Part shown: positions 1-35,712 of the stretch, piece by piece | Position numbering within the stretch: the first letter of the stretch is position 1 | Layout of the letters: every line of letters begins with the position of its first letter | Assembly (NCBI GenBank): GCA_017527065.1 | Contig: JAFXQO010000030.1 | Span: 1-41,864, forward strand | Reading direction: 5' to 3' | From: Clostridia bacterium | GTDB lineage: Bacteria > Bacillota > Clostridia > Christensenellales > Aristaeellaceae | DNA length: 41,864 bases | Notes under the pieces: generated by a model | Told to the model about the DNA's origin: nothing | Databases searched by the model: none | The model's input: only the letters and a program-made list of their open reading frames with translations | Translations under genes and position numbers: made by a program

Positions 1-1717
1 ACTCCGACATGTCGATGCGGATCATGCTGTCGTCGTCGCCGAAGAGCGCTTCGGCCAACGCCTTGCACAGTTCCGTCTTGCCGACGCCCGTGGGGCCAAG
101 AAAGATAAACGAGCCTATGGGGCGACGCGGGTCCTTGAGGCCCGCCCGGGCCCGGCGCACGGCGCGAGCCACAGCCGTCACCGCCTCGTCCTGGCCGATC
201 ACGCGGCCGTGCAGTGTGTCCTCCAGGCGCACCAGCTTCGCGGCCTCGTCTTCCGTCATGCGCTTCACGGGGATGCCCGTCCAGGCTGCCACAACGCCGG
301 CCACTTCTTCTTCGCCGACCCGGCCTACCTTGGCGTCCCGCTGGCGCTCCCATTCCTGACGGCGCGCCTCCATGTCGCTCTGCAGGCGCTTTTTCTGATC
401 GCGCAGCTCCGCGGCTTTCTCGAAATTCTCCGCGGCCACGGCCTCCTCGATTTCCTGGCTGAGGCTCTCAAGCCGTTCTTCCTGCTCCTTCATGTCCAGC
501 GGGGCGGTGAAGGCGTGCAGGCGCACGCGGGAGGCCGCCTCGTCGATCAGGTCAAGCGCCTTGTCGGGCAACGCGCGGTCGGAAATATACCTATCGGAAA
601 GCCGCACGGCCGCCTCGATGGCCTCGTCCGTGATGGTGACCTTGTGATGCGCTTCGTAGGCGTCGCGAAGGCCCATCAGGATGGCGACGGACTCGTCCAT
701 GCTGGGTTCGTTCACCATGACCGGCTGGAAGCGCCGCGCCAGCGCCGCGTCTTTCTCGATCTTCTTGTGGTATTCCGAGAGCGTCGTCGCGCCGATGCAC
801 TGCAGCTCGCCGCGGGCCAGGAGCGGCTTCAGAATGTTCGCCGCGTCCAGCGAGCCTTCGCCCGCGCCCGCGCCGACCAGCGTGTGCAGTTCGTCGATGA
901 AGAGTATGATATTGTGCTCCTTCTGAACTTCCGCCATGGCGTTCTTCAGGCGCTCCTCGAACTCGCCGCGATACTTCGCGCCGGCCAGCATGCCCGACAG
1001 GTCGAGCTGGACCAGCCGCTTGCCGCGCAGGATCTCCGGCACCTCGCCCGAAACGATCATCTGCGCCAGTCCCTCGGCCACGGCGCTCTTGCCGACGCCG
1101 GGCTCGCCCAGCAGCACGGGATTGTTCTTGCGCCGGCGGCAGAGAATCTGCATGATCCGCTCGATCTCCGTCGTCCGGCCGATGACGGGATCGAGTTCGC
1201 CCTGCCGGGCCAGCTTCGTCAGGTCGCGGGCGTACTGGTCTATGGTGGGCGTGGCGCTGTTTTCCTGCGCGTCATCGGCCTTCTCGCCGCCGCAGGCGCG
1301 CAGCAGTTCGTTGCGGGCCTCGTTCAGGTTCATTCCCAGCCTCATGAGCGCCTGTGCCGCCACGCCCTCGCGCTCGAACAGCAGCGCCAGCAGCAGGTGC
1401 TCCGTGCCCACGTAATTTTGCCCGAGATCGCGCGCCTCCCTGGCGCTCTGCTCCAGCACCTTCTTTGTACGCGGCGCATAGGACATGGTTTTGACGTTTA
1501 CGGTGTCGTCGCCTTCGCCCACCATCTGCAGCACGACCGCGCGCACCTCGTCGATGGACACGGCGTTCAGCACGGCCCCCGCTTTGCCCGGATCCCGCAT
1601 GACGCCGAGCAGCAGGTGCTCCGTGCCCACGTAATTCCGGCGCATGGACGCGGCCTCTTTCTGCGCCGCGAGCAGCGCGCGCTGGGCTCTTTCAGTAAAT
1701 TTCGCAAAAAACGCCAT
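1..1717 (-). CDS. clpC: ClpC, Hsp100 AAA+ unfoldase (C-terminal part outside window)
   Basis: ATPase subunit of the ClpCP protease, which unfolds and feeds damaged or arginine-phosphorylated proteins to ClpP in the cytosol. I translated the reverse strand from the ATG at 1717. It gives about 572 residues with two N-terminal Clp repeats (both contain the phrase [10 protein letters not shown]), the first AAA+ module with Walker A GEPGVGKS and Walker B ILFIDE, a middle UVR-type coiled segment ([16 protein letters not shown]), and the start of the second AAA+ module with Walker A GPTGVGKT. The reading frame is open to base 1, so about 240 residues of a normal ~810-residue ClpC are missing because of the window edge. 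An AAGGAGG site lies just upstream, and the start is 21 nt after the mcsB stop, as last gene of the ctsR operon. Identity is secure. Confidence 0.96.
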
Positions 1718-1738
1718 AGATTCCTCCTTGACCTCGTG

Positions 1739-2773
1739 TCATATGACCCCGGCTTCGTCGAGCAGGGCGTCGAACGCCTCCCGCAGCGCGTCGGCGCGCA
1801 GGGCGTCCCGCTGCCGTTCCGTCATTTTCTCCATGGACCGGCACTCGATGGAAGCGTTCTGCATGTCGCATGTCAGCCGGTCGACCGCCTCGCAGCCCAC
1901 GCGCAGCATGCCCAGCGCCGCGCCCGTGCGCAGTTCCGAAAGGCGCTGCATCATTTCCCGCTCGCACATCAGCTTCGCCGCGTGGATCAGGGCGATGGAA
2001 CGGCTTACTCTGTCTTCGATGATCAACGCGTCCTGTTCATATATTTTGCGCCGCACGCCGCGTTCACATGCGATGATCGCTTCCGCCGCCTCGCTGAGCG
2101 CGCCGAGGGTGTCTTCCTCCGTCTGCCCGATGCGGGCGACGCCCGTCAGTTGGTAGAGATTGCCCGCCACGTCGCCCTTTTCCTCGCGCCAGGGCTTCAG
2201 CGTGAGGCCCTTTTGCGAAAGCTGCTGGTGAAAGCGGGGCACCTGACCCGCCGCACGCATGGTTGGCAGGTGCAGTATGATCTCCGCCCGCATGGCCGGG
2301 CCGGCGTTCGCCGGATCGGCGGTGAGGAAGCCGAACTGAGAATCGTAGGCATACGCGCCGGTGGCGTCGAGCCAACCGTCGGCCTGGCAGGCCAGGTCGG
2401 CCGCGCGCTCGACCTGAGCGCCGGGCAGCATGCCGTAAATGCGCACATGGTCTTCCTCGTTGACCATGACGCTCATGGTTGATCCCTTTGAGAGGAACGC
2501 CGCGCCCCGCGAAGGACGCCTGAGAAGGCCCCTGCTGATCAGATAATGATCTGCCAGCCGTCCCTGTTCCGATACGGTCATGTCGGCCAGCCTCGCCAGG
2601 GAAAAGGCCTCTTTCTGGCTGGCCGCCTCGATGGCCGCGGCCACGCGGGCGATGTTATGGGCGGCTTCCTCGTCGCTCATGACGCTTTCAAAGGGCACGT
2701 CGGCAAAGTTTCTTGCCAGAATGATCCGCGTCAGGACCGCCACATCGGACGCGGGAGCGCCGAACTCATTCAT
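1739..2773 (-). CDS. mcsB: McsB-like protein arginine kinase homologue with altered active site
   Basis: By position (between mcsA and clpC) and overall similarity this is McsB, the phosphagen-kinase-fold enzyme that phosphorylates arginines to mark proteins for ClpCP. The 344-residue length is close to the usual ~355-365. Kept features: RIILARN (16-22), NEEDHVR (105-111), an R in GPAMR (162) and, near the C-terminus, RDALRA (322-327), which fits the RDxxRA phospho-arginine receptor motif. Lost features: the second arginine of RxRLARN is Ile18; the CPTN-type catalytic cysteine is Asp153 in TADPAN; the VRGxYGEG loop reads LKPWREEK (192-199), replacing its arginine with Lys193; and the SNQxTLG segment reads TGVARIG. 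From family knowledge these residues hold ATP or act in catalysis, so I infer weak or absent kinase activity. The start overlaps the mcsA end by 8 nt. Confidence 0.88.
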   Translation of the reverse strand: MNEFGAPASDVAVLTRIILARNFADVPFESVMSDEEAAHNIARVAAAIEAASQKEAFSLARLADMTVSEQGRLADHYLISRGLLRRPSRGAAFLSKGSTMSVMVNEEDHVRIYGMLPGAQVERAADLACQADGWLDATGAYAYDSQFGFLTADPANAGPAMRAEIILHLPTMRAAGQVPRFHQQLSQKGLTLKPWREEKGDVAGNLYQLTGVARIGQTEEDTLGALSEAAEAIIACERGVRRKIYEQDALIIEDRVSRSIALIHAAKLMCEREMMQRLSELRTGAALGMLRVGCEAVDRLTCDMQNASIECRSMEKMTERQRDALRADALREAFDALLDEAGVI

Positions 2774-3293
2774 CGCCCGCCGCCTCCATTTCCGCCGACA
2801 GCGCGCGAATCTGGTCCCTCAACAGGGCCGCCTGCTCGTATTCTTCCCGCGCGATGGCTTCTTTCTGCATGCGGCGCAGCTTGCCCAGCTGCATCCTGAG
2901 GGAGACCGAACACGCCACGCCGCCCGATTCGCGGCCGATGTGCCGCGCCGCGCCGCGTTCGCGCTTCATCCATTCGGTGAGCGGCTGGCGGAACGCCTCG
3001 TAACACTGAGCGCATCCGACGCGGCCGCTGGCTCGGAACGCGGCGTATGTGGTTCCGCATTGGGCGCAGCTGATGTCCGGGATGGGCGTCTCGGCCTCGG
3101 GTTCAACCGCCTTCTCCTGCTTCTGCCGGATCATCTGGCTCAGGCGGCTGGCGATGGCTCCGAAATCCACGCTCAATTCCTTCTTCCGCGCCAGACATTC
3201 GCTGCACAGATTGAAATCGCGCTTTTCCCCGTCCACAATGGTCGTCAGATGGATGTTGGCCGGGCGTTCGCCGCATTCGTCACACATGATCAT
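2766..3293 (-). CDS. mcsA: McsA, zinc-finger activator of McsB
   Basis: Partner and activator of McsB, also involved in CtsR control. It has 175 residues counted from the ATG at 3293. It begins MIMCDECGERPANIHL, the usual McsA opening, and carries four CxxC pairs (CDEC, CSEC, CAQC, CAQC) expected to bind two zinc ions. It ends with a UVR motif (LRRMQKEAIAREEYEQAALL), the same kind of helix pair as in ClpC and UvrB. An upstream ATG at 3314 is in frame, but it lies deeper in ctsR and gives a non-family N-terminus. The 3293 start has a GGGGTGA ribosome site 5 nt away and overlaps the ctsR end by 14 nt, consistent with translational coupling. Confidence 0.94.
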   Translation of the reverse strand: MIMCDECGERPANIHLTTIVDGEKRDFNLCSECLARKKELSVDFGAIASRLSQMIRQKQEKAVEPEAETPIPDISCAQCGTTYAAFRASGRVGCAQCYEAFRQPLTEWMKRERGAARHIGRESGGVACSVSLRMQLGKLRRMQKEAIAREEYEQAALLRDQIRALSAEMEAAGDE

Positions 3294-21048: not shown

Positions 21049-21062
21049 TTAGTCTATACTAA
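21049..21062. promoter_or_regulatory. Short inverted repeat upstream of the aldo/keto reductase gene
   Basis: TTAGT-CTAT-ACTAA is a perfect 5-bp inverted repeat with a 4-nt spacer. It overlaps the stop codon of the CARF-nuclease gene and lies just before a TATAGT box near 21024-21029 (minus strand). It could be an operator for the reductase gene, but it is short enough to arise by chance. Confidence 0.25.
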
Positions 21063-22228
21063 TTTACGCCTTCCTGCCTGCGTAGCCGCTTCACCAGGCG
21101 GCTGAGCTTCAAATCGCTCCATTCGACGACCTCGATTTCCAGCTCCGCGGCGCGGCGGCGCATCAGGGCGCGGCCCTTCGTGACGGGAGCCGACGTGACG
21201 ATGACCGCCCTCGATCCCTTGCCGCCGAACCGGTCACGCAGAATCGCCAGCTCGTTGAGCGCCTCCGTCTTGATCTCGCTGGTCTTGCAGCTGATGAAAA
21301 CCGGCTGCACGCCCTGAACGGCCATCACGTCGATCTCGTTTGTCACGCCGTCCCGCTGATTGCCGCCGCCCTGCCAGTTGACCACGGCGCTCAGCACCAC
21401 GTCGTCGAAGCAGTCCGCCGCCAGACACGCCCTGAACACCTGCAGCTCCAGCACCGACCCCATGTCCCTGAGCCAGAAGCGGATCGTCTCGTCCGGGAAG
21501 CGGAAGCGGACGGCTTCGTCCGTCAACTGCAATTCCTGGATCATGCCGGCCCTTTCCAGCGCCCGAAGCAGCCCCGCGTCCGCCGTCACGGTGTGGTTGT
21601 CGGCCTTTTCCGTGCGCGCGCCCGCCGCCTCGAGCGCGCCCGGCTCGGCGGAGGAGATGCGCTGTATGTAGCTCACCTGCCGGTTCCAGATCGCCCGGTA
21701 CTGGGCGTAGACGGAAAACAGCCTGTCGATCTCATTCAGCATGCCCTTGAGCCGCTCGTTGTCCTCCCGGCCCGGCAGCAGGGTGCCGCCCGCCATCAGG
21801 AAGCACGAGCGCGCGTCCAGGCGCACGGCGCAGGGAAGGTCGCGGGCGAAGGGCGCGTTGCGTATCTCGAAAAAGGCGTTCTTCTTCCGGCTGTAGGTGT
21901 ACACGCTCGCATCGCCGGAGACCGCGCCCGCGGCGAACAGGGCGGCGTCCGTGCCGCCTGAGATGTCGATGGCGCAGTCCTCGTGCGTTTCAAGGATGCG
22001 CCGGAGCGACTTTTCAACCTTGTTCGCGTCCAGCAGGCTCACCGGCACGAAGGTCAGCTTCACCGGGCATTGCCTGTGCTCGAAATACTGGCTCATGGCC
22101 TGGCGGAGGGCGCGGTCCGCCTCGATTTCCGGCGGGCAGACGATGATCGTCTCCTCCGGGCGGAACATCTCCGTGCCCAGCACGTTCTCGATGGGCCTCT
22201 CGTCGTACAGTTCTATCAGCGTCTTCAT
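21059..22228 (-). CDS. Card1/Can2-like CARF-domain nuclease (DUF1887 family)
   Basis: 389 residues, close to the ~370 of Card1/Can2. The N-terminal half is CARF-like: MKTLIELYDERPIENVLG, then the ligand-loop motif AIDISGGTDAALFAAG (about 86-101). A winged-helix-like linker follows (about 215-245). The C-terminal PD-(D/E)xK-type nuclease has GVTNEIDVMAVQGVQPVFI followed by SCK (294-315). In type III CRISPR systems such proteins are switched on by cyclic tetra-adenylate and cut DNA/RNA. No CRISPR array or cas gene is in this window, so it may be an orphan effector or belong to the housekeeping DUF1887 group common in Clostridia. A GGGAGG site precedes the ATG. Confidence 0.82.
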   Translation of the reverse strand: MKTLIELYDERPIENVLGTEMFRPEETIIVCPPEIEADRALRQAMSQYFEHRQCPVKLTFVPVSLLDANKVEKSLRRILETHEDCAIDISGGTDAALFAAGAVSGDASVYTYSRKKNAFFEIRNAPFARDLPCAVRLDARSCFLMAGGTLLPGREDNERLKGMLNEIDRLFSVYAQYRAIWNRQVSYIQRISSAEPGALEAAGARTEKADNHTVTADAGLLRALERAGMIQELQLTDEAVRFRFPDETIRFWLRDMGSVLELQVFRACLAADCFDDVVLSAVVNWQGGGNQRDGVTNEIDVMAVQGVQPVFISCKTSEIKTEALNELAILRDRFGGKGSRAVIVTSAPVTKGRALMRRRAAELEIEVVEWSDLKLSRLVKRLRRQEGVN

Positions 22229-22321: not shown

Positions 22322-23380
22322 ATGGCAGAGCTTCGCCAGGCTATCGTGGGATTCGGCGGCATGGGCGGCTGGCACATGGAGAACATCAGGGGCAAGGTGC
22401 CCGAAATCGAGGCTTACGGCGTCTACGACATCCGGCCCGAGGCCATGGAAGCGGCCCGGGCGAAGGGCTTTCACACCTATGACTCGCTGGAGAGCCTGCT
22501 CGCCGACAAGACGGTCGATCTTGTGACCATCGCCGTGCCGAACAACTTCCACAAGGACATCGCCATCGCGGCGCTGCGCGCGGGCAAGCACGTGGTGTGC
22601 GAAAAGCCCGTTACGCTGAACGCGGCGGAGCTGGAGGAGATCATCGCCGCGCGCGACGAGGCCGGCAGGGTGTTTTCCATTCACCAGAACCGCCGCTGGG
22701 ACAGGGACTTCTGCATCGTGAAGGCCGCCAAAGAACAGGGCCTGCTGGGCAAAGTCTACATGGTCGAGAGCAAGGTCCAGGGTTCCCGCGGCTCCATGTA
22801 CGGCTGGCGCGGCCACAAGGAGAACGGCGGCGGCATGCTGCTGGACTGGGGCGTGCACCTGCTCGACCAGGCCATGCAGTTGTTCGATGAGAAGGTGGTC
22901 AGCGTGGACGCGCACCTTCTGAGCATGTACACTCCCGGCGTGGATGACAACATCAAGCTGTTCATCCGCTTCGAGGGCGGCTGCTCCTACATGATGGAAA
23001 TGAGCACCAACTGCCTCATCAACGCGCCCCGCTGGCACGTTCAGGGCACCGAGGGCACCCTGCAGATCGACGATTGGAGCTGCAAAGGCCGCCTGCTCAA
23101 GCTGAAACCCAACGCCGAGATGAAATGGGACAACGACATCGTCTACACCGCGGCCGGCCCCACCCGCACCATGGCGCCCCGCCCCGAATACACCATGAAC
23201 GAGCTGCCCCTGCCGGACGAGCGGCCCGACTGGTCGGACTACTACCGGAACATCGCGGCGGTCATCGCCGGGCGCGAGGAACTCATTGTGAAGCCCGAGC
23301 AGGCGCTGCGCGTCATGAAGGTGATCGACCTCATGTTCAGGGCGGAGGCCGAGGGCGCCGGCCAGAAGTGCGAAATCTGA
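22322..23380 (+). CDS. Gfo/Idh/MocA family oxidoreductase
   Basis: 352 residues. The Rossmann fold begins QAIVGFGGMGGWHMENI, with EKP at about 97 (VVCEKPVTLN) and the substrate domain motif GGGMLLDWGVHLLDQ. NAD(P)-dependent oxidation or reduction of a sugar or cyclitol is expected. It is not closely similar to the dehydrogenase at 17753-18826. It has its own strong promoter and an AGGAG site, stands alone on the plus strand, and converges on the deaminase-like gene with only 9 nt between stop codons. Its link to its nucleotide-effector-like neighbours is unclear and may be accidental. Confidence 0.92.
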   Translation: MAELRQAIVGFGGMGGWHMENIRGKVPEIEAYGVYDIRPEAMEAARAKGFHTYDSLESLLADKTVDLVTIAVPNNFHKDIAIAALRAGKHVVCEKPVTLNAAELEEIIAARDEAGRVFSIHQNRRWDRDFCIVKAAKEQGLLGKVYMVESKVQGSRGSMYGWRGHKENGGGMLLDWGVHLLDQAMQLFDEKVVSVDAHLLSMYTPGVDDNIKLFIRFEGGCSYMMEMSTNCLINAPRWHVQGTEGTLQIDDWSCKGRLLKLKPNAEMKWDNDIVYTAAGPTRTMAPRPEYTMNELPLPDERPDWSDYYRNIAAVIAGREELIVKPEQALRVMKVIDLMFRAEAEGAGQKCEI

Positions 23381-23389
23381 CCGCCCGAT

Positions 23390-25861
23390 TCAGCGGGGCC
23401 GCGCTTCCTCCGCGTACAGCCCCAGCTCGCGAAGGATCTCCTCCGCGTCCTTTAAGGGCTTCACGTAGCCTTCAAGCAGCTTTGCCTTTTCAGCCAGCCC
23501 GCGGGAACGCGGGCTGATGTATATTCTGCACTTTTCCCGGCCGTTCCGCGCTTCCTGGATCAGGTTCAGGGCGGCGGAGTTGCCGTCGAAAGCCAGCAGC
23601 GCCGAAGGCGTCCGCTTGAAAACCTCGTAGGCGAAGCTCTTATACAGGCCCATGCCCGAGCTCTCGATGGACACCATGACGCCCAGGTTCGCCTCGCTCA
23701 GCCGGGCTTTTTCCGCGCGGGTGATCAGTTCGGGCACGATGGCGAACACGCGGAAGCGTCCCTTCGCGCGCCGGACCAGATACCCCTCCTGCGCGGCGAG
23801 CGTATGCCCCACCACGAAGCATGTCCTGGCCGGGTCGGCGTGCGCCAGCAGCCGGTCGATGAAGGCGCAGTCCTCTTCCCGCAGTGGGGAGCGGCGCGCG
23901 CTGCTGTTGAAGCTGCCTCCGCCCACCACGATGGGAAAGAAGCCCGCCGGCAGCGCCGCGATCTGCCGCCTGAGGCCGTCCTCCGCGCGTATCTTATCCG
24001 TGCCCCGCCAGAGGGCGCGGGTGACTTTTTCCTCGTTTTCAAGCCGCCGGTTATAAAACAGCTCCACGTCGCCGCTCTGGGCGTACTCCCGGAAGCGCTC
24101 GCTCTTTGCGTCGAACACGCGGCGGCTCTCCGCCAGGATACCGTCCTCCGCCTCGCGCATGCGCAGGAGTTCCTCATGCGTCAGGCCCAGCAGCTTCTCC
24201 AGGCTCAGCTCCTCGTCGATGGAGTTGGTGCCGTACAGCGCGCCGCCGTCGGTGCCCTGCACGCAGCGGACGCCCGCCTTCAGATACGACCGGAGGGGAT
24301 GCCTGTTCAGGCGGCTCAGGTTGTTCAGGCGCACGTTCGAGGTGATCTGAAACTCCAGCGCCACGCCGCGGCGCTTCATCTCGTCCAGCAGCGCCCTGCC
24401 CCGGGCGCTGCTCAGGTCGCAGGTGTACAGGCCGTGGCCGATGCGCAGCGGGGGCATGGGCTGGCCGGGCGACAGCGCCTCGGTCACGCAGCGGATGCTG
24501 TTGGCGACGTTGTCCCGCAGGCTGTCGTTTTCGCCGGCGTGGATGCGGATGACAAAGCCGGTATTCTCCCCGGCGATGGCCGCCATCTCGCGAATGACGC
24601 CCCTCAGTTCGAGGATGTCGTTGATCTCCTCGCCGATGATGTCGCCGCCGGCTATGTACGGGTCCCCCGCGATGGCGCGCAGGCAGCGCAGGTTCTCGGC
24701 CAGGTAATCGTTCGGCGTCACGCGGTCCCGCACAATGGTCAGCGGGACGCGGCGGATGCCGGCCAGGAAGCGGATGAGCACGCCGGTTTCCCGGGTGACG
24801 CCCGGCATGACCTCGTGGATCTGGCGCAGCTTCGCGGGAAACTCCGCCCGGTTCAGGAGCGACGTATCTGTCATTTCCACGTATTCGACGCCGTGTCTGC
24901 GGTATTCCCGCGCGATCCAGAGCAGCAGGTCCTGATACAGGGTGTTGCCCCGCCAGCGGCCGTCCTCCCGATCGCGGATCATCCTTTCGGCGTAGGCGCG
25001 AACCTCCCTGTCCGGAATGCCGCTGATGTTCACCCCGGCGAACGGCTTCTCCGACGGCCGTCCCTTCGTGAACACGTAGCGGTAAAGATACACCTTCTCG
25101 AGATCGGCGAACACCGCCTGCCCGTCTTTGGGGATGGTCAGCGAGTTGCGGATGCGCTCGATGTTTCCGGCCGCGTCCCGCGGGTTGCCGAGGATGAGGT
25201 CGGCGAAATTGATGAAGGTATAGTCGTCTATGCGGCGCTCGCGGTGCCGGCCTGTCAGGCCCGCCAGACCGGCCTCGCCGAGGCGCGCTTCCGCCTCGAC
25301 TCGGGCCGCCTCCAGCCGCGCCGTCTGTTCGGGGGCGCAGCCGAGTCCCAGCTTTTTTATGTAATAGTACGGATAGCGAATCTGATGCACGATGCCCAGC
25401 GCGATCAGCGCGTCGGGCGGCAGGTTGCCGTTCATGTGGGTATGCAGGTCGGTGCGGAACTTGCAGTCGCTACGGATATAGGTCTTGACGATGGTCTTTT
25501 CAACGCCCAGCCGGTAATCCTTGGTCTGGCTCATGAGCGTCTTGGAAATGGCGGGAATGGAGGCCTTCAGCTCGACCCGGCCGTCCGGGTAGATGTTCGC
25601 GATCTTCGTGTTGCCCAGCCGGAGGATATACATCTTCCGATTGTCGCCGTCCACATAGCAGGGGATTTCGCCGCGTATCACCTTCAGGCCGTTTTCGTCC
25701 TGCGATGTCTCCAGCTCGCACAGCCGGGCGAGGTTGGTGATGAGGTTGCCCGTGCTGTGGTTCGGCGTGCGGATGACGTGGAAAAGCCGCTGGCCATCCA
25801 TGTAGAGATCCACCACAATGTCCTTTTCCCTGTCCAAATAAAACTGCTGAAAAAAGATCAT
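23390..25861 (-). CDS. Large multidomain adenosine-deaminase-like protein
   Basis: 823 residues from the ATG at 25861, which has GGAAGGAGG upstream (the frame reaches 25918). Residues 1-130 form an unrecognised beta-rich domain. About 131-560 is an amidohydrolase-fold adenosine deaminase domain: DLHTHMNGN (zinc His 140 and 142), IRIHAGEND (His441, Glu444), RIGHGLY (475-477), QITSNVRLNNL and GTDGG (Asp537). The acidic pair of classic ADA (TDD) is TDG here. About 640-823 looks like a Rossmann/SLOG-type nucleotide-binding domain (PIVVGGGSFNSS, CFVVGHTLAAQEGYLV, FAIVPE, SSGMGLYKSF). Ordinary ADA is ~340 residues. Large ADA effectors include RdrB of RADAR and CARF-fused Cad1; this could be a relative, but I see no partner ATPase. 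Confidence 0.72.
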   Translation of the reverse strand: MIFFQQFYLDREKDIVVDLYMDGQRLFHVIRTPNHSTGNLITNLARLCELETSQDENGLKVIRGEIPCYVDGDNRKMYILRLGNTKIANIYPDGRVELKASIPAISKTLMSQTKDYRLGVEKTIVKTYIRSDCKFRTDLHTHMNGNLPPDALIALGIVHQIRYPYYYIKKLGLGCAPEQTARLEAARVEAEARLGEAGLAGLTGRHRERRIDDYTFINFADLILGNPRDAAGNIERIRNSLTIPKDGQAVFADLEKVYLYRYVFTKGRPSEKPFAGVNISGIPDREVRAYAERMIRDREDGRWRGNTLYQDLLLWIAREYRRHGVEYVEMTDTSLLNRAEFPAKLRQIHEVMPGVTRETGVLIRFLAGIRRVPLTIVRDRVTPNDYLAENLRCLRAIAGDPYIAGGDIIGEEINDILELRGVIREMAAIAGENTGFVIRIHAGENDSLRDNVANSIRCVTEALSPGQPMPPLRIGHGLYTCDLSSARGRALLDEMKRRGVALEFQITSNVRLNNLSRLNRHPLRSYLKAGVRCVQGTDGGALYGTNSIDEELSLEKLLGLTHEELLRMREAEDGILAESRRVFDAKSERFREYAQSGDVELFYNRRLENEEKVTRALWRGTDKIRAEDGLRRQIAALPAGFFPIVVGGGSFNSSARRSPLREEDCAFIDRLLAHADPARTCFVVGHTLAAQEGYLVRRAKGRFRVFAIVPELITRAEKARLSEANLGVMVSIESSGMGLYKSFAYEVFKRTPSALLAFDGNSAALNLIQEARNGREKCRIYISPRSRGLAEKAKLLEGYVKPLKDAEEILRELGLYAEEARPR

Positions 25862-26092: not shown

Positions 26093-26129
26093 AGCCACAT
26101 TGATACCGCCATGAAAGGAAGAAATGATA

Positions 26130-29071: not shown

Positions 29072-29205
29072 AAATTAGGAATTAGGAATTTGGAATTAGG
29101 AATGATAGTTTGTCTGAAACGCGCCTGCGGCGCGTTGGACGGCTTCACTCCGGTTCCTTTCAACCAAAATACAATTCCTAATTCCTAATTCCCAATTCCT
29201 AATTT
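29072..29205. repeat. Inverted pair of GGAATTA-heptad repeat elements
   Basis: The left arm (29073-29103) is a run of GGAATTA-like heptads; the right arm (29173-29205) is the same in reverse complement. Next to each array is a related tail (left AGTTTGTCTGAAA; right, reversed, TATTTTGGTTGAAAGGA). A perfect hairpin AACGCGCC-TGC-GGCGCGTT (29118-29136) sits between them. The whole could fold into one long stem-loop. It fills the gap between thiI and the CBS-protein gene. Confidence 0.8.
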
Positions 29206-31850: not shown

Positions 31851-33881
31851 ATGTTTGAACTGAGCAGCAAATACGAGCCCCAGGGCGACCAGCCGCAGGC
31901 CATCGAGAAGCTCTCGCAGGGGCTGGCGGACGGGCTGAGCGACCAGGTGCTGCTGGGCGTGACCGGCTCGGGCAAGACCTTCACCATGGCGAACATCATC
32001 CGCAACGCGCAGCGCCCGGCGCTGGTCATCGCCCACAACAAGACGCTGGCCGCGCAGCTGGCGGGCGAGTTCCGCGAGTTCTTCCCGGACAGCGCCGTGG
32101 GCTATTTCGTGAGTTATTACGACTACTACCAGCCCGAGGCGTATATCCCCTCCACCGACACCTTCATCGAGAAGGACGCCTCCATCAACGACGAGATCGA
32201 CCGCATGCGCCACAGCGCCACCGCCTGGCTGAAGGAGCGGCGCGACGTGATCATCGTGGCCTCGGTGAGCTGCATCTACGGCCTGGGCGACCCGGCCGAA
32301 TACGAGGGCCTGTCCATCTCCCTTCGCGAAGGCGAGAGCATGGACCACGACGATCTGCTCAGGCAGCTGGTCGACATCCAGTACGACCGCAACGACTTCG
32401 AGTTCAAGAGGTCCACTTTCCGCGTGCGCGGCGACGTGGTGGACATCATCCCCGCGAATTCCGAGGACACCGCCATCCGCGTCGAGTTCTTCGGCGACGA
32501 GATCGACCGCATTTCGGAAATCGACGCGGTCACGGGCAACGTGCGGCGCTACCTCAAGCACGTGATGATCTTCCCCGCCTCCCATTACGCCACCTCCCGC
32601 GAAAAGCTGGACGCCTGCCTGGAGCGCATCGAAGGCGACCTGGAGACGCAGCTGGAGGAGTTCCGCAACAACGACCGGCTGCTGGAGGCGCAGCGGCTGG
32701 AGCAGCGCACGCACTACGACATCGAGATGATGCGCGAAATCGGCTACTGCTCCGGCATCGAAAACTACTCGCGCTACTTCGACGGCCGCGAGCCGGGCGA
32801 GCCGCCCTTCACCCTGCTGGACTACTTCCCCAAGGACTTCATCGTGTTCATCGACGAGGCCCACGTGACCGTGCCGCAGATTCGCGCCATGTACAACGGC
32901 GATTACGCCCGCAAGCGCGCGCTGGTGGAGTACGGTTTCCGGCTGCCCTCCGCCTTCGACAACCGGCCGCTGCGCTTCCACGAGTTCGAGCAGCGCGTGA
33001 GCCAGGTGATCTACGTCTCCGCCACACCCGGCCCCTACGAGCTGGAGCGCGCCGATCAGGTTGTGGAGCAGATCATCCGCCCCACCGGCCTGATCGACCC
33101 GGAAATCGTCGTGCGGCCCGCCACCGGCCAGGTGGACGACCTGCTGGGCGAGATCCGAAAGGTGGTCAAGACCGGACAGCGCGTTTTGGTGACGACGCTC
33201 ACCAAGGTGATGGCGGAGAACCTGACCAGCTACCTGAAAGAAATGGACGTGCGGGTGGAGTATCTTCACTCGGACGTGGAGACGCTGGAGCGCATCCGGC
33301 TCATCCGCAGCCTGCGCCTGGGCGAATACGACGTGCTGGTGGGCATCAACCTGCTGCGTGAGGGCCTCGACATTCCCGAGGTGGCGCTGGTGGCCATACT
33401 GGACGCGGACAAGGAGGGCTTCCTGCGCTCCGAAACGAGCCTCGTGCAGACCATCGGCCGCGCGGCGCGAAACGTCAACGGCCGCGTCATCATGTACGCC
33501 GACGCGCTCACCGAGTCGATGGACAAGGCCATCAAAGAGACCAACCGCCGCCGCTCCATCCAGCAGGCCTTCAACGAGGAGCACCACATCGTGCCCCGTT
33601 CCGTGGCCGCCGCCGTGCATGAGCTGCTGGAGGTCAGCCGCCCGGCGGACGCCGAGGCCGCGAACGCGCCTTCCGTGTTCGACGAGGAGGAAAAGCAGGC
33701 CACCATCGCCCGCCTGGAGGAGAGCATGCTGGACGCCGCCGAGCATCTCGATTTCGAAAAGGCCGCGAAGCTGCGTGACCAGCTGCTGGCGCTGAAGGGC
33801 GAAACCCCCATTGCCAGCGCGGAAAAATCCCGGAAGAAGCGCCGCACGCGCCAGAAAACCACGCACAGGCACGCGCAATAG
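31851..33881 (+). CDS. uvrB: UvrB, excinuclease ABC subunit B
   Basis: DNA-damage verification helicase of nucleotide excision repair. 676 residues from the ATG at 31851, since GGGAGG lies 9 nt upstream (another in-frame ATG at 31842 touches that site). Walker A is GVTGSGKT (36-43); the beta-hairpin [12 protein letters not shown] follows; helicase motifs include [19 protein letters not shown] and QTIGRAARN. The C-terminal UVR helix pair ([20 protein letters not shown]) binds UvrA/UvrC. The C-tail is short and very basic. The stop codon's last base is the first base of a heptad repeat. Confidence 0.97.
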
Positions 33882-33920
33882 AATTAGGAATTAGGAATTG
33901 TAGTTTGCTGTTGAGGAATG
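33881..33920. repeat. GGAATTA-heptad repeat element with conserved tail
   Basis: Nearly three heptads (33881-33899) are followed by TAGTTTGCTGTTGAGGAATG. The tail is related to those at 34894-34915 and in the element at 29072-29205. It starts at the last base of the uvrB stop codon. Confidence 0.75.
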
Positions 33921-33928
33921 AGCGGGTT

Positions 33929-34860: not shown

Positions 34861-34915
34861 AATTAGGAATTTGGAATTGGGAATTAGGAATTGAAGTTTG
34901 CTGAAAGGGAGCGAA
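34861..34915. repeat. GGAATTA-heptad repeat element with conserved tail
   Basis: Heptads (34861-34893) are followed by the tail GAAGTTTGCTGAAAGGGAGC. The AGGGAG of the tail lies 9 nt before the next gene's ATG and probably serves as its ribosome binding site, so the repeat has been co-opted for translation. Confidence 0.78.
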
Positions 34916-35485: not shown

Positions 35486-35689
35486 ATGAAGATTGAAGAC
35501 TGGCTGGACTGCCAGCACACGGTGCGTGTGCTGGGCAAAGCTGGCATTACCGAGATGGAAGAACTGGCCAAGCTGTCCAGAGGCGATTTGCTGAAGCTGC
35601 GCGGCATCGGGCCAGTGATCGCAGGAGACGTTGAAAAGCGGATCGAGGAATGGAATTCCCGTAAAAATCAAGGAATCCAGAATTCCTAA
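35486..35689 (+). CDS. Small helix-hairpin-helix protein
   Basis: 67 residues resembling the RNA polymerase alpha C-terminal or RuvA-type HhH fold: VLGKAGITEMEELAKLSRGDLLKLRGIGPVIAGDVEKRI (about 14-52), with the hairpin LRGIG. Such domains bind DNA non-specifically or proteins. GGGAAGGG lies upstream, and the gene starts 16 nt after the kinase-like gene. Its last two codons and stop (AAT TCC TAA) lie in a heptad repeat, so the repeat may have trimmed or replaced the original C-terminus. It sits directly before uvrA, which could hint at DNA repair. Confidence 0.75.
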   Translation: MKIEDWLDCQHTVRVLGKAGITEMEELAKLSRGDLLKLRGIGPVIAGDVEKRIEEWNSRKNQGIQNS

Positions 35690-35712
35690 TTCCTCATTCC
35701 TAATTCCTAATT
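35681..35712. repeat. GGAATTA-heptad array, reverse orientation
   Basis: Four CCTAATT/CCTCATT-like heptads (reverse complement of the other arrays) span the stop codon of the HhH gene and the short gap before uvrA. No conserved tail is visible on the gene-proximal side. Confidence 0.75.

Follow-up and report, generated by a model that had tools for sequence, protein, structure and literature searches.

A three-domain adenosine deaminase-like protein with a predicted SLOG-type C-terminal domain from rumen and gut Clostridia

Introduction

The deamination of ATP to ITP is a recently found immune output, known from RADAR and from Cad1, a type III CRISPR effector in which an adenosine deaminase (ADA) is fused to a CARF domain, and SLOG domains are known as immune sensors from Thoeris. 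KomA of the Kongming system is an ADA-type enzyme as well. In this study, a gene from a 41,864-nucleotide stretch of a Clostridia bacterium (contig JAFXQO010000030.1; the whole stretch is referred to as the window) was analyzed, whose product places an ADA barrel between an N-terminal domain and a predicted SLOG-type domain. The reading favored here, with a probability of roughly 50%, is that of a stand-alone, horizontally moving, SLOG-controlled adenine-nucleotide deaminase. It is based on the domain order, the predicted folds, the catalytic set, the loss of two nucleoside-contacting Asp residues, the patchy distribution, the varying gene neighborhoods and a tree that cuts across host families.

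As far as the available parts of the respective sources go, Kongming is a nucleotide-signal defense of the dITP pathway with KomA as its deaminase, RdrB of RADAR is an ADA of large size, extended at its N-terminus and with its core divided by an insertion, and SLOG serves as sensor in Thoeris. The accessible part of the study on TaqCad1, an ATP deaminase, reports that the positions of mouse ADA Asp296 and Asp19 are substituted to Asn and Gly, that mouse Asp19 binds the 5′ and 3′ hydroxyls of adenosine, and that restoring both Asp residues raised the adenosine activity of TaqCad1 only slightly (PMC12669630). A literature search of partial coverage, with the 2015 SLOG survey outside of it, yielded no described ADA-SLOG protein among the matches listed.

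Results

Domain architecture

An earlier note on this DNA had claimed an 823-residue ADA-like protein, which could be substantiated: the gene is an uninterrupted minus-strand frame that encodes 823 residues and ends in a stop, and A_deaminase was the sole Pfam family matched by its product at E ≤ 1 (E 4.6e-15). Its parts are:

23390..25861, minus strand: whole gene, 823 amino acids (N-domain, ADA barrel, predicted SLOG domain), from the open frame and full-length relatives
25508..25861, minus strand: N-domain of residues 1-118, rich in beta-strands and without a known family (secondary structure in the predicted model, Pfam, PDB, conservation)
24104..25507, minus strand: adenosine deaminase barrel, residues 119-586
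24947..25336, minus strand: helical stretch at residues ~176-305 that short ADAs lack (helices in the model; spacing between H142 and H441)
23453..23992, minus strand: predicted SLOG-superfamily (Rossmann-like) domain, residues ~624-803 (predicted model and fold matches)

The plus-strand reading of 23390-25861 is interrupted and was rejected as a gene. A GTG upstream of the start would extend the protein to 842 amino acids; the alignments of the relatives begin at the ATG. The protein belongs to the adenosine deaminase superfamily PF00962 (56 bits vs. the Pfam cut-off of 27, with metal and catalytic residues conserved), and its gene is the sole A_deaminase match in its own genome, which is 89% complete. 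Residues ~586-623 link the barrel and the SLOG domain, and 299 residues separate H142 from H441.

The N-domain, the barrel and the C-domain are found together again in relatives with as little as 46% identity; a relative of 783 amino acids at 25% identity shows them in a looser form. In an alignment of 31 hand-picked sequences (A1; 46-87% identity to the window protein) they are conserved end to end. As such a recurrence is far beyond chance, the conserved domain architecture is confirmed as real. The order of N-domain, ADA core and C-domain proposed in the earlier note therefore stands, whereas its boundaries (an N-domain of ~130 residues and a C-domain at 640-823) had to be slightly revised to 1-118 and ~624-803.

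Active site of the barrel

The catalytic set was followed through 88 rows, namely the window protein and 87 relatives with near-copies included, of which 73 relatives remain at <90% mutual identity:

25436..25444, minus strand: HTH metal motif, residues 140-142 (H140 and H142 in all 88 rows)
25430..25432, minus strand: N144, at the position of mouse ADA Asp19 (N in 80, S in 7 and A in 1 of 88 rows)
24530..24541, minus strand: HAGE motif, residues 441-444 (H and E in 87 of 88 rows; the truncated L072 has a gap here)
24431..24439, minus strand: GHG motif, residues 475-477 (H476 in 87 of 88 rows, one gap)
24245..24250, minus strand: D538-G539 (metal Asp kept, Gly at the position of mouse Asp296; each in 87 of 88 rows, the remaining row having a gap)

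As H441, E444, H476 and D538 do not vary among the 87 rows with letters there, the ADA core with HTH, HAGE, GHG and the first Asp, as read from the single sequence before, holds throughout the relatives. The combination of Asp19 and Asp296 that marks housekeeping ADAs is absent, with N/S/A and G taking their places (equivalence to the mouse residues taken from the alignment to a solved ADA). Two ordinary ADAs included as control keep Asp19 but carry Asn at 296, which makes the loss of Asp19 the more telling change. The scores for the best NCBIfam ADA models also fell short of their cut-offs (PRK09358, 44 vs. 459 bits; TIGR01430, 41.7 vs. 216.55 bits). Judged from the alignment, the active site resembles that of nucleotide deaminases at two key positions.

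The C-terminal and N-terminal domains

Structure predictions covered the whole protein and the C-domain. The model of residues 612-823 was predicted with high scores (predicted local distance difference test, pLDDT, 93; predicted template modeling score, pTM, 0.90), and its fold matches (Foldseek, VIA) comprised DprA, YgdH, the molybdenum cofactor (MoCo) carrier, LOG and TRPM at ~8-20% identity, with ThsA not among the matches listed. The SLOG/Rossmann-like assignment of the earlier note is in agreement with these matches, and a SLOG-type fold is supported by the predicted model. Against Pfam, the C-domain of the window protein yielded no family at E ≤ 1 and reached no SLOG cut-off, and that of the divergent relative scored 19 bits for LSDAT_prok, below the cut-off of 25.4. 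A search of a viral fold library with the C-domain gave no match at E ≤ 0.001. Matches to Tox-REase-5 in 10 of 58 C-domains (set A2, the window and 57 of the 73 references) were weak (best 0.0075) and were taken as chance.

The catalytic motif of LOG-type enzymes is PGGxGTxxE. At its place the window protein reads, by eye, FDGNSAALN, with the conserved Asn766 at the Glu position, and the domain also carries a YKS motif. Based on the model, the C-domain may be a sensor-type nucleotide-binding domain.

The N-domain had been called novel, which fits the sequence searches: no Pfam family was matched by the window protein's N-domain at E ≤ 1, the N-domains of 27 members gave scattered weak Pfam matches only (best 0.041), and the best match of an N-domain profile among PDB sequences had an E-value of 0.16. 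With a conservation of 0.79 (72 rows, L072 and L106 left out) it is second only to the start of the barrel. Because the values for the SLOG domain (0.67) and for the second barrel part (0.77) are lower, the N-domain is probably of functional importance.

Distribution and mobility

A housekeeping enzyme of all relatives, which the earlier note had named as the finding that would speak against its proposal, was not encountered: the gene was present in 13 of 100 sampled genomes, comprising 13 of 60 from its own family (its own genome included) and 0 of 40 others of the order. Among the sampled genomes of at least 90% completeness, 8 of 67 were carriers. A second sample of the order, queried with the divergent relative, gave 8 of 297 genomes, one of them in another family (G950) and one being the divergent relative itself. 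Profile searches found 13 of 391 genomes in the class (own included; one a 402-amino-acid ordinary ADA, one the divergent relative) and 3 of 398 in the phylum, namely the own genome, one true relative and a 351-amino-acid ordinary ADA. A scan of GTDB genomes yielded 78 loci, mostly in rumen and gut Clostridia, but also in Oribacterium, Erysipelotrichaceae and Sharpea.

The divergent 783-amino-acid relative (P0002) shares the domain order and 25% identity over query residues 8-687; a profile comparison (hhalign) with it was not used, as alignment A4 contains that relative and the result would be circular. At positions 874-3222 of locus L106, the divergent N-domain/ADA/SLOG relative of 783 amino acids has kept the Gly-rich SLOG motifs and is the sole one of its kind in the 297 genomes of the order queried with it. 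At 9191-11695 of L072 the gene is split into two frames of 177 and 652 amino acids, being either broken or affected by a sequencing error.

In a tree of 39 rows the host-family label changes at least three times, and the family formed one group in 0 of 200 bootstrap trees; Oribacterium was grouped with Sharpea and an Erysipelotrichaceae row (support 100/99). Flanking genes were compared for 77 loci and the window (L088, lacking a called anchor gene, was left out), and they differ even where the proteins reach 73-87% identity. The loci are not fully independent of one another, as some related ones, up to about six per group, have their flanks in common. In the window the gene lies next to a YcxB-NifS-ThiI block, which the same-genus genomes G001-G004 retain (cut by a contig end in G003); there the deaminase gene never adjoins it in the stretches examined. 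A similar gene, spoIIIAA-like by eye, occupies the place beside this block in G001, G002 and G004, and these three carry the deaminase gene on other contigs, which are fragments (in G002 as two pieces). The changing flanks together with a tree that crosses families make horizontal movement of the gene likely. The patchy occurrence and the changing surroundings also suggest an accessory, signal-switched enzyme, possibly one serving virus defense, rather than one of routine metabolism.

Genomic neighborhood

No convincing recurring partner gene was found in the 77 loci and the window. In 10 loci from two clades a cluster 3 gene is the first or second gene downstream, but both groups are proteins with the widespread polysaccharide deacetylase domain and only 23-29% identical over ~190 residues, and they were rejected as partners, as was cluster 2 (MatE), which was read as an ordinary neighbor. 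In 45 of 70 loci the next gene after the ADA has the same orientation, so that the ADA gene may be co-transcribed with varied downstream genes. A simple word and dyad count over 86 upstream stretches gave no shared regulatory site that stood out.

No enrichment of defense genes was seen in 125 near neighbors. At E ≤ 1e-10 these matched 51 PADLOC families, the 25 listed having one member each and being mainly GajB-type helicase models, and 125 distant control genes matched four families with one member each (all 125 near genes drawn from 266 candidates, 125 of the 130 drawn distant genes from 420; one per cluster, 60-900 amino acids). TIR_2 matches (E ≤ 0.001) occurred in 3 of 13 carriers vs. 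10 of 47 non-carriers of the family and not in the own genome. This shows no association with carriers, and a Thoeris-like pairing with TIR was rejected. Neither the window protein nor A1 had relatives in phage, plasmid or viral collections, and the divergent relative matched nothing in phages or viral contigs. As its single plasmid match was an ADA of ordinary size, phage or plasmid cargo was also rejected. The neighbor, TIR_2 and collection results neither support nor exclude a stand-alone defense gene, and the surroundings do not strongly favor defense.

Within the window the gene is flanked on both sides by plus-strand genes. The neighbors identified by eye are an oxidoreductase (22322-23380) and a YcxB-like gene, and a run of plus-strand chromosomal genes starting at 26124 reaches uvrB and uvrA (names by eye). 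At 21059-22228 on the minus strand lies a CARF4-PDDEXK (Card1/Can2-like) protein (PADLOC E 1.6e-40), apparently an orphan effector of the cyclic-oligonucleotide type: a search for Cas10 in the own genome (89% complete) gave no PF22335 match, and the Csm1 model found only an HD-GYP-like protein (by eye). A partnership with the deaminase was rejected, as this protein lies 1.2 kb off across the opposite-strand oxidoreductase, its cluster was unseen beside the gene in other loci, and Cas10 was not found. An Rfam search of the window gave no match at gathering score. Repeated elements of the type AATTAGGAATTAGGAATT occur at 29072-29205, 33868-33921, 34861-34910 and 35668-35712, direct and inverted and mostly intergenic; they are possible small mobile or regulatory repeats.

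Discussion

According to the favored reading, the ADA barrel would deaminate an adenine nucleotide, most likely of the ATP or dATP class, and not free adenosine, while the SLOG domain would bind a nucleotide-type ligand such as ADP-ribose, a molecule resembling cyclic ADP-ribose, or a metabolic nucleotide. The SLOG domain would control the barrel as an allosteric switch, and the N-domain and the helical insertion would probably form an oligomer through which this control acts. Most likely its purpose would be to drain or poison the adenine nucleotide pool conditionally, when the cell is under stress, perhaps upon phage infection; a role in phage defense is plausible. A more far-reaching version, which appears rather unlikely, is a one-protein immune switch, in which the SLOG domain reads an infection or stress nucleotide (e.g., an ADP-ribose isomer or a modified nucleotide) and turns on ATP/dATP deamination in the same chain, making the protein a CRISPR-free SLOG counterpart of Cad1 that spread horizontally in gut and rumen Bacillota.

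Two alternatives have to be considered seriously, each of them tentative. The protein could be a single-gene abortive-infection effector, in which sensing of an infection ligand by SLOG leads to conversion of ATP/dATP to ITP/dITP and a growth stop as in RADAR and Cad1. Its patchy occurrence with changing flanks, the active-site changes at the Cad1 positions and, as far as the available sources describe them, the precedents of RADAR and Cad1 and of SLOG in Thoeris speak for this idea, but neither the PADLOC families near the gene (mostly single GajB-type helicase matches), nor the missing partner gene, the TIR_2 counts and the lack of phage, plasmid or viral relatives fit with it. Equally conceivable is a conditional metabolic enzyme of gut bacteria with AMP, ATP or an unusual adenine compound as its substrate; SLOG would then sense purine status allosterically, without any connection to phages. 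The chromosomal setting among ordinary genes, the lack of a visible defense enrichment and the high conservation of N-domain and barrel, unlike the fast change usual in conflict genes, are in line with it; moreover, 45 of the 60 sampled family genomes had no A_deaminase match at E ≤ 0.001, so that a carrier could gain a function. Yet for core metabolism one would not usually expect variable surroundings and a cross-family tree, the identified recurring neighbor clusters have polysaccharide deacetylase and MatE domains and are not purine genes, and no shared upstream site was found. A two-step enzyme, whose SLOG domain would act as a nucleotide N-glycosidase (LOG/PpnN-like) and strip hypoxanthine from the barrel's inosine-nucleotide product, is improbable. 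The good fold matches to LOG and to YgdH of the PpnN family speak for it, but the LOG motif, as read by eye, is replaced and its Glu position is Asn766.

If the favored reading of a SLOG-controlled nucleotide deaminase is true, a natural single protein joining this immune output and this immune sensor would be a simple system for a nucleotide signal gating a deaminase, and nucleotide-pool defense would be widened to uncultured gut Clostridia. The conserved N-domain without a family match found is a further point of interest.

Compared with known proteins, the barrel and the metal site are those of an ordinary adenosine deaminase, which differs by its Asp19 and Asp296, by lacking the two extra domains and by the PRK09358 cut-off. 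The C-domain shares the predicted fold of SLOG domains (LOG, DprA, PpnN/YgdH, the MoCo carrier, and LSDAT of TRPM MHR1/2), but is set apart by its low identity to them, FDGNSAA in place of the Gly-rich LOG motif, the YKS motif and the fusion to a deaminase. Unlike in Thoeris, the effector would be an ADA and not SIR2, and the own genome has no TIR_2 match. Kongming also uses an ADA-type enzyme, KomA, but in the window protein deaminase and sensor-type domain form one chain; neither SIR2 nor HAM1 was seen as a recurring partner in the 77 loci and the window, with no profile search made for KomB or KomC. Separately, locus L109 (4778-7176; Novosphingobium humi plasmid NZ_CP117418.1) holds a 400-amino-acid ADA with Arg at the Asp19 position (HLRG) beside a 271-amino-acid SIR2_2 protein (1.3e-26), possibly a Kongming-like pair that the plasmid record leaves unannotated.

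RdrB of RADAR, a dodecamer with three insertions, is similar in its N-terminal extension and core insertion, as judged for the window protein by length, but differs from the window protein, which has a predicted C-terminal SLOG domain. No ATPase gene adjoins the gene in the window (neighbors named by eye), and none was noted as a recurring partner in the 77 loci and the window, with no RdrA profile searched. For the 31 A1 members no RdrB model was listed by PADLOC at E ≤ 1, with its presence in the library not checked, and RdrB was not among the 50 matches listed, which excludes nothing. The sole recurring defense-model match was CARF_ADA of PADLOC, which covers only profile positions 262-554 of 605, on the barrel (31 A1 members); with a predicted SLOG-type C-domain the protein does not appear to be a CARF-ADA fusion, although the fold of its N-domain was not searched separately. 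Cad1 carries its CARF domain at the N-terminus and has G and N where N/S/A and G are found here, and the window protein adds the N-domain and the helical insertion and comes from a genome (89% complete) in which no Cas10 was found. Nevertheless, both proteins fuse an ADA barrel to a Rossmann-like nucleotide-sensor domain, predicted as such in the window protein, and in both the two nucleoside-contacting Asp positions (mouse Asp19 and Asp296) are replaced.
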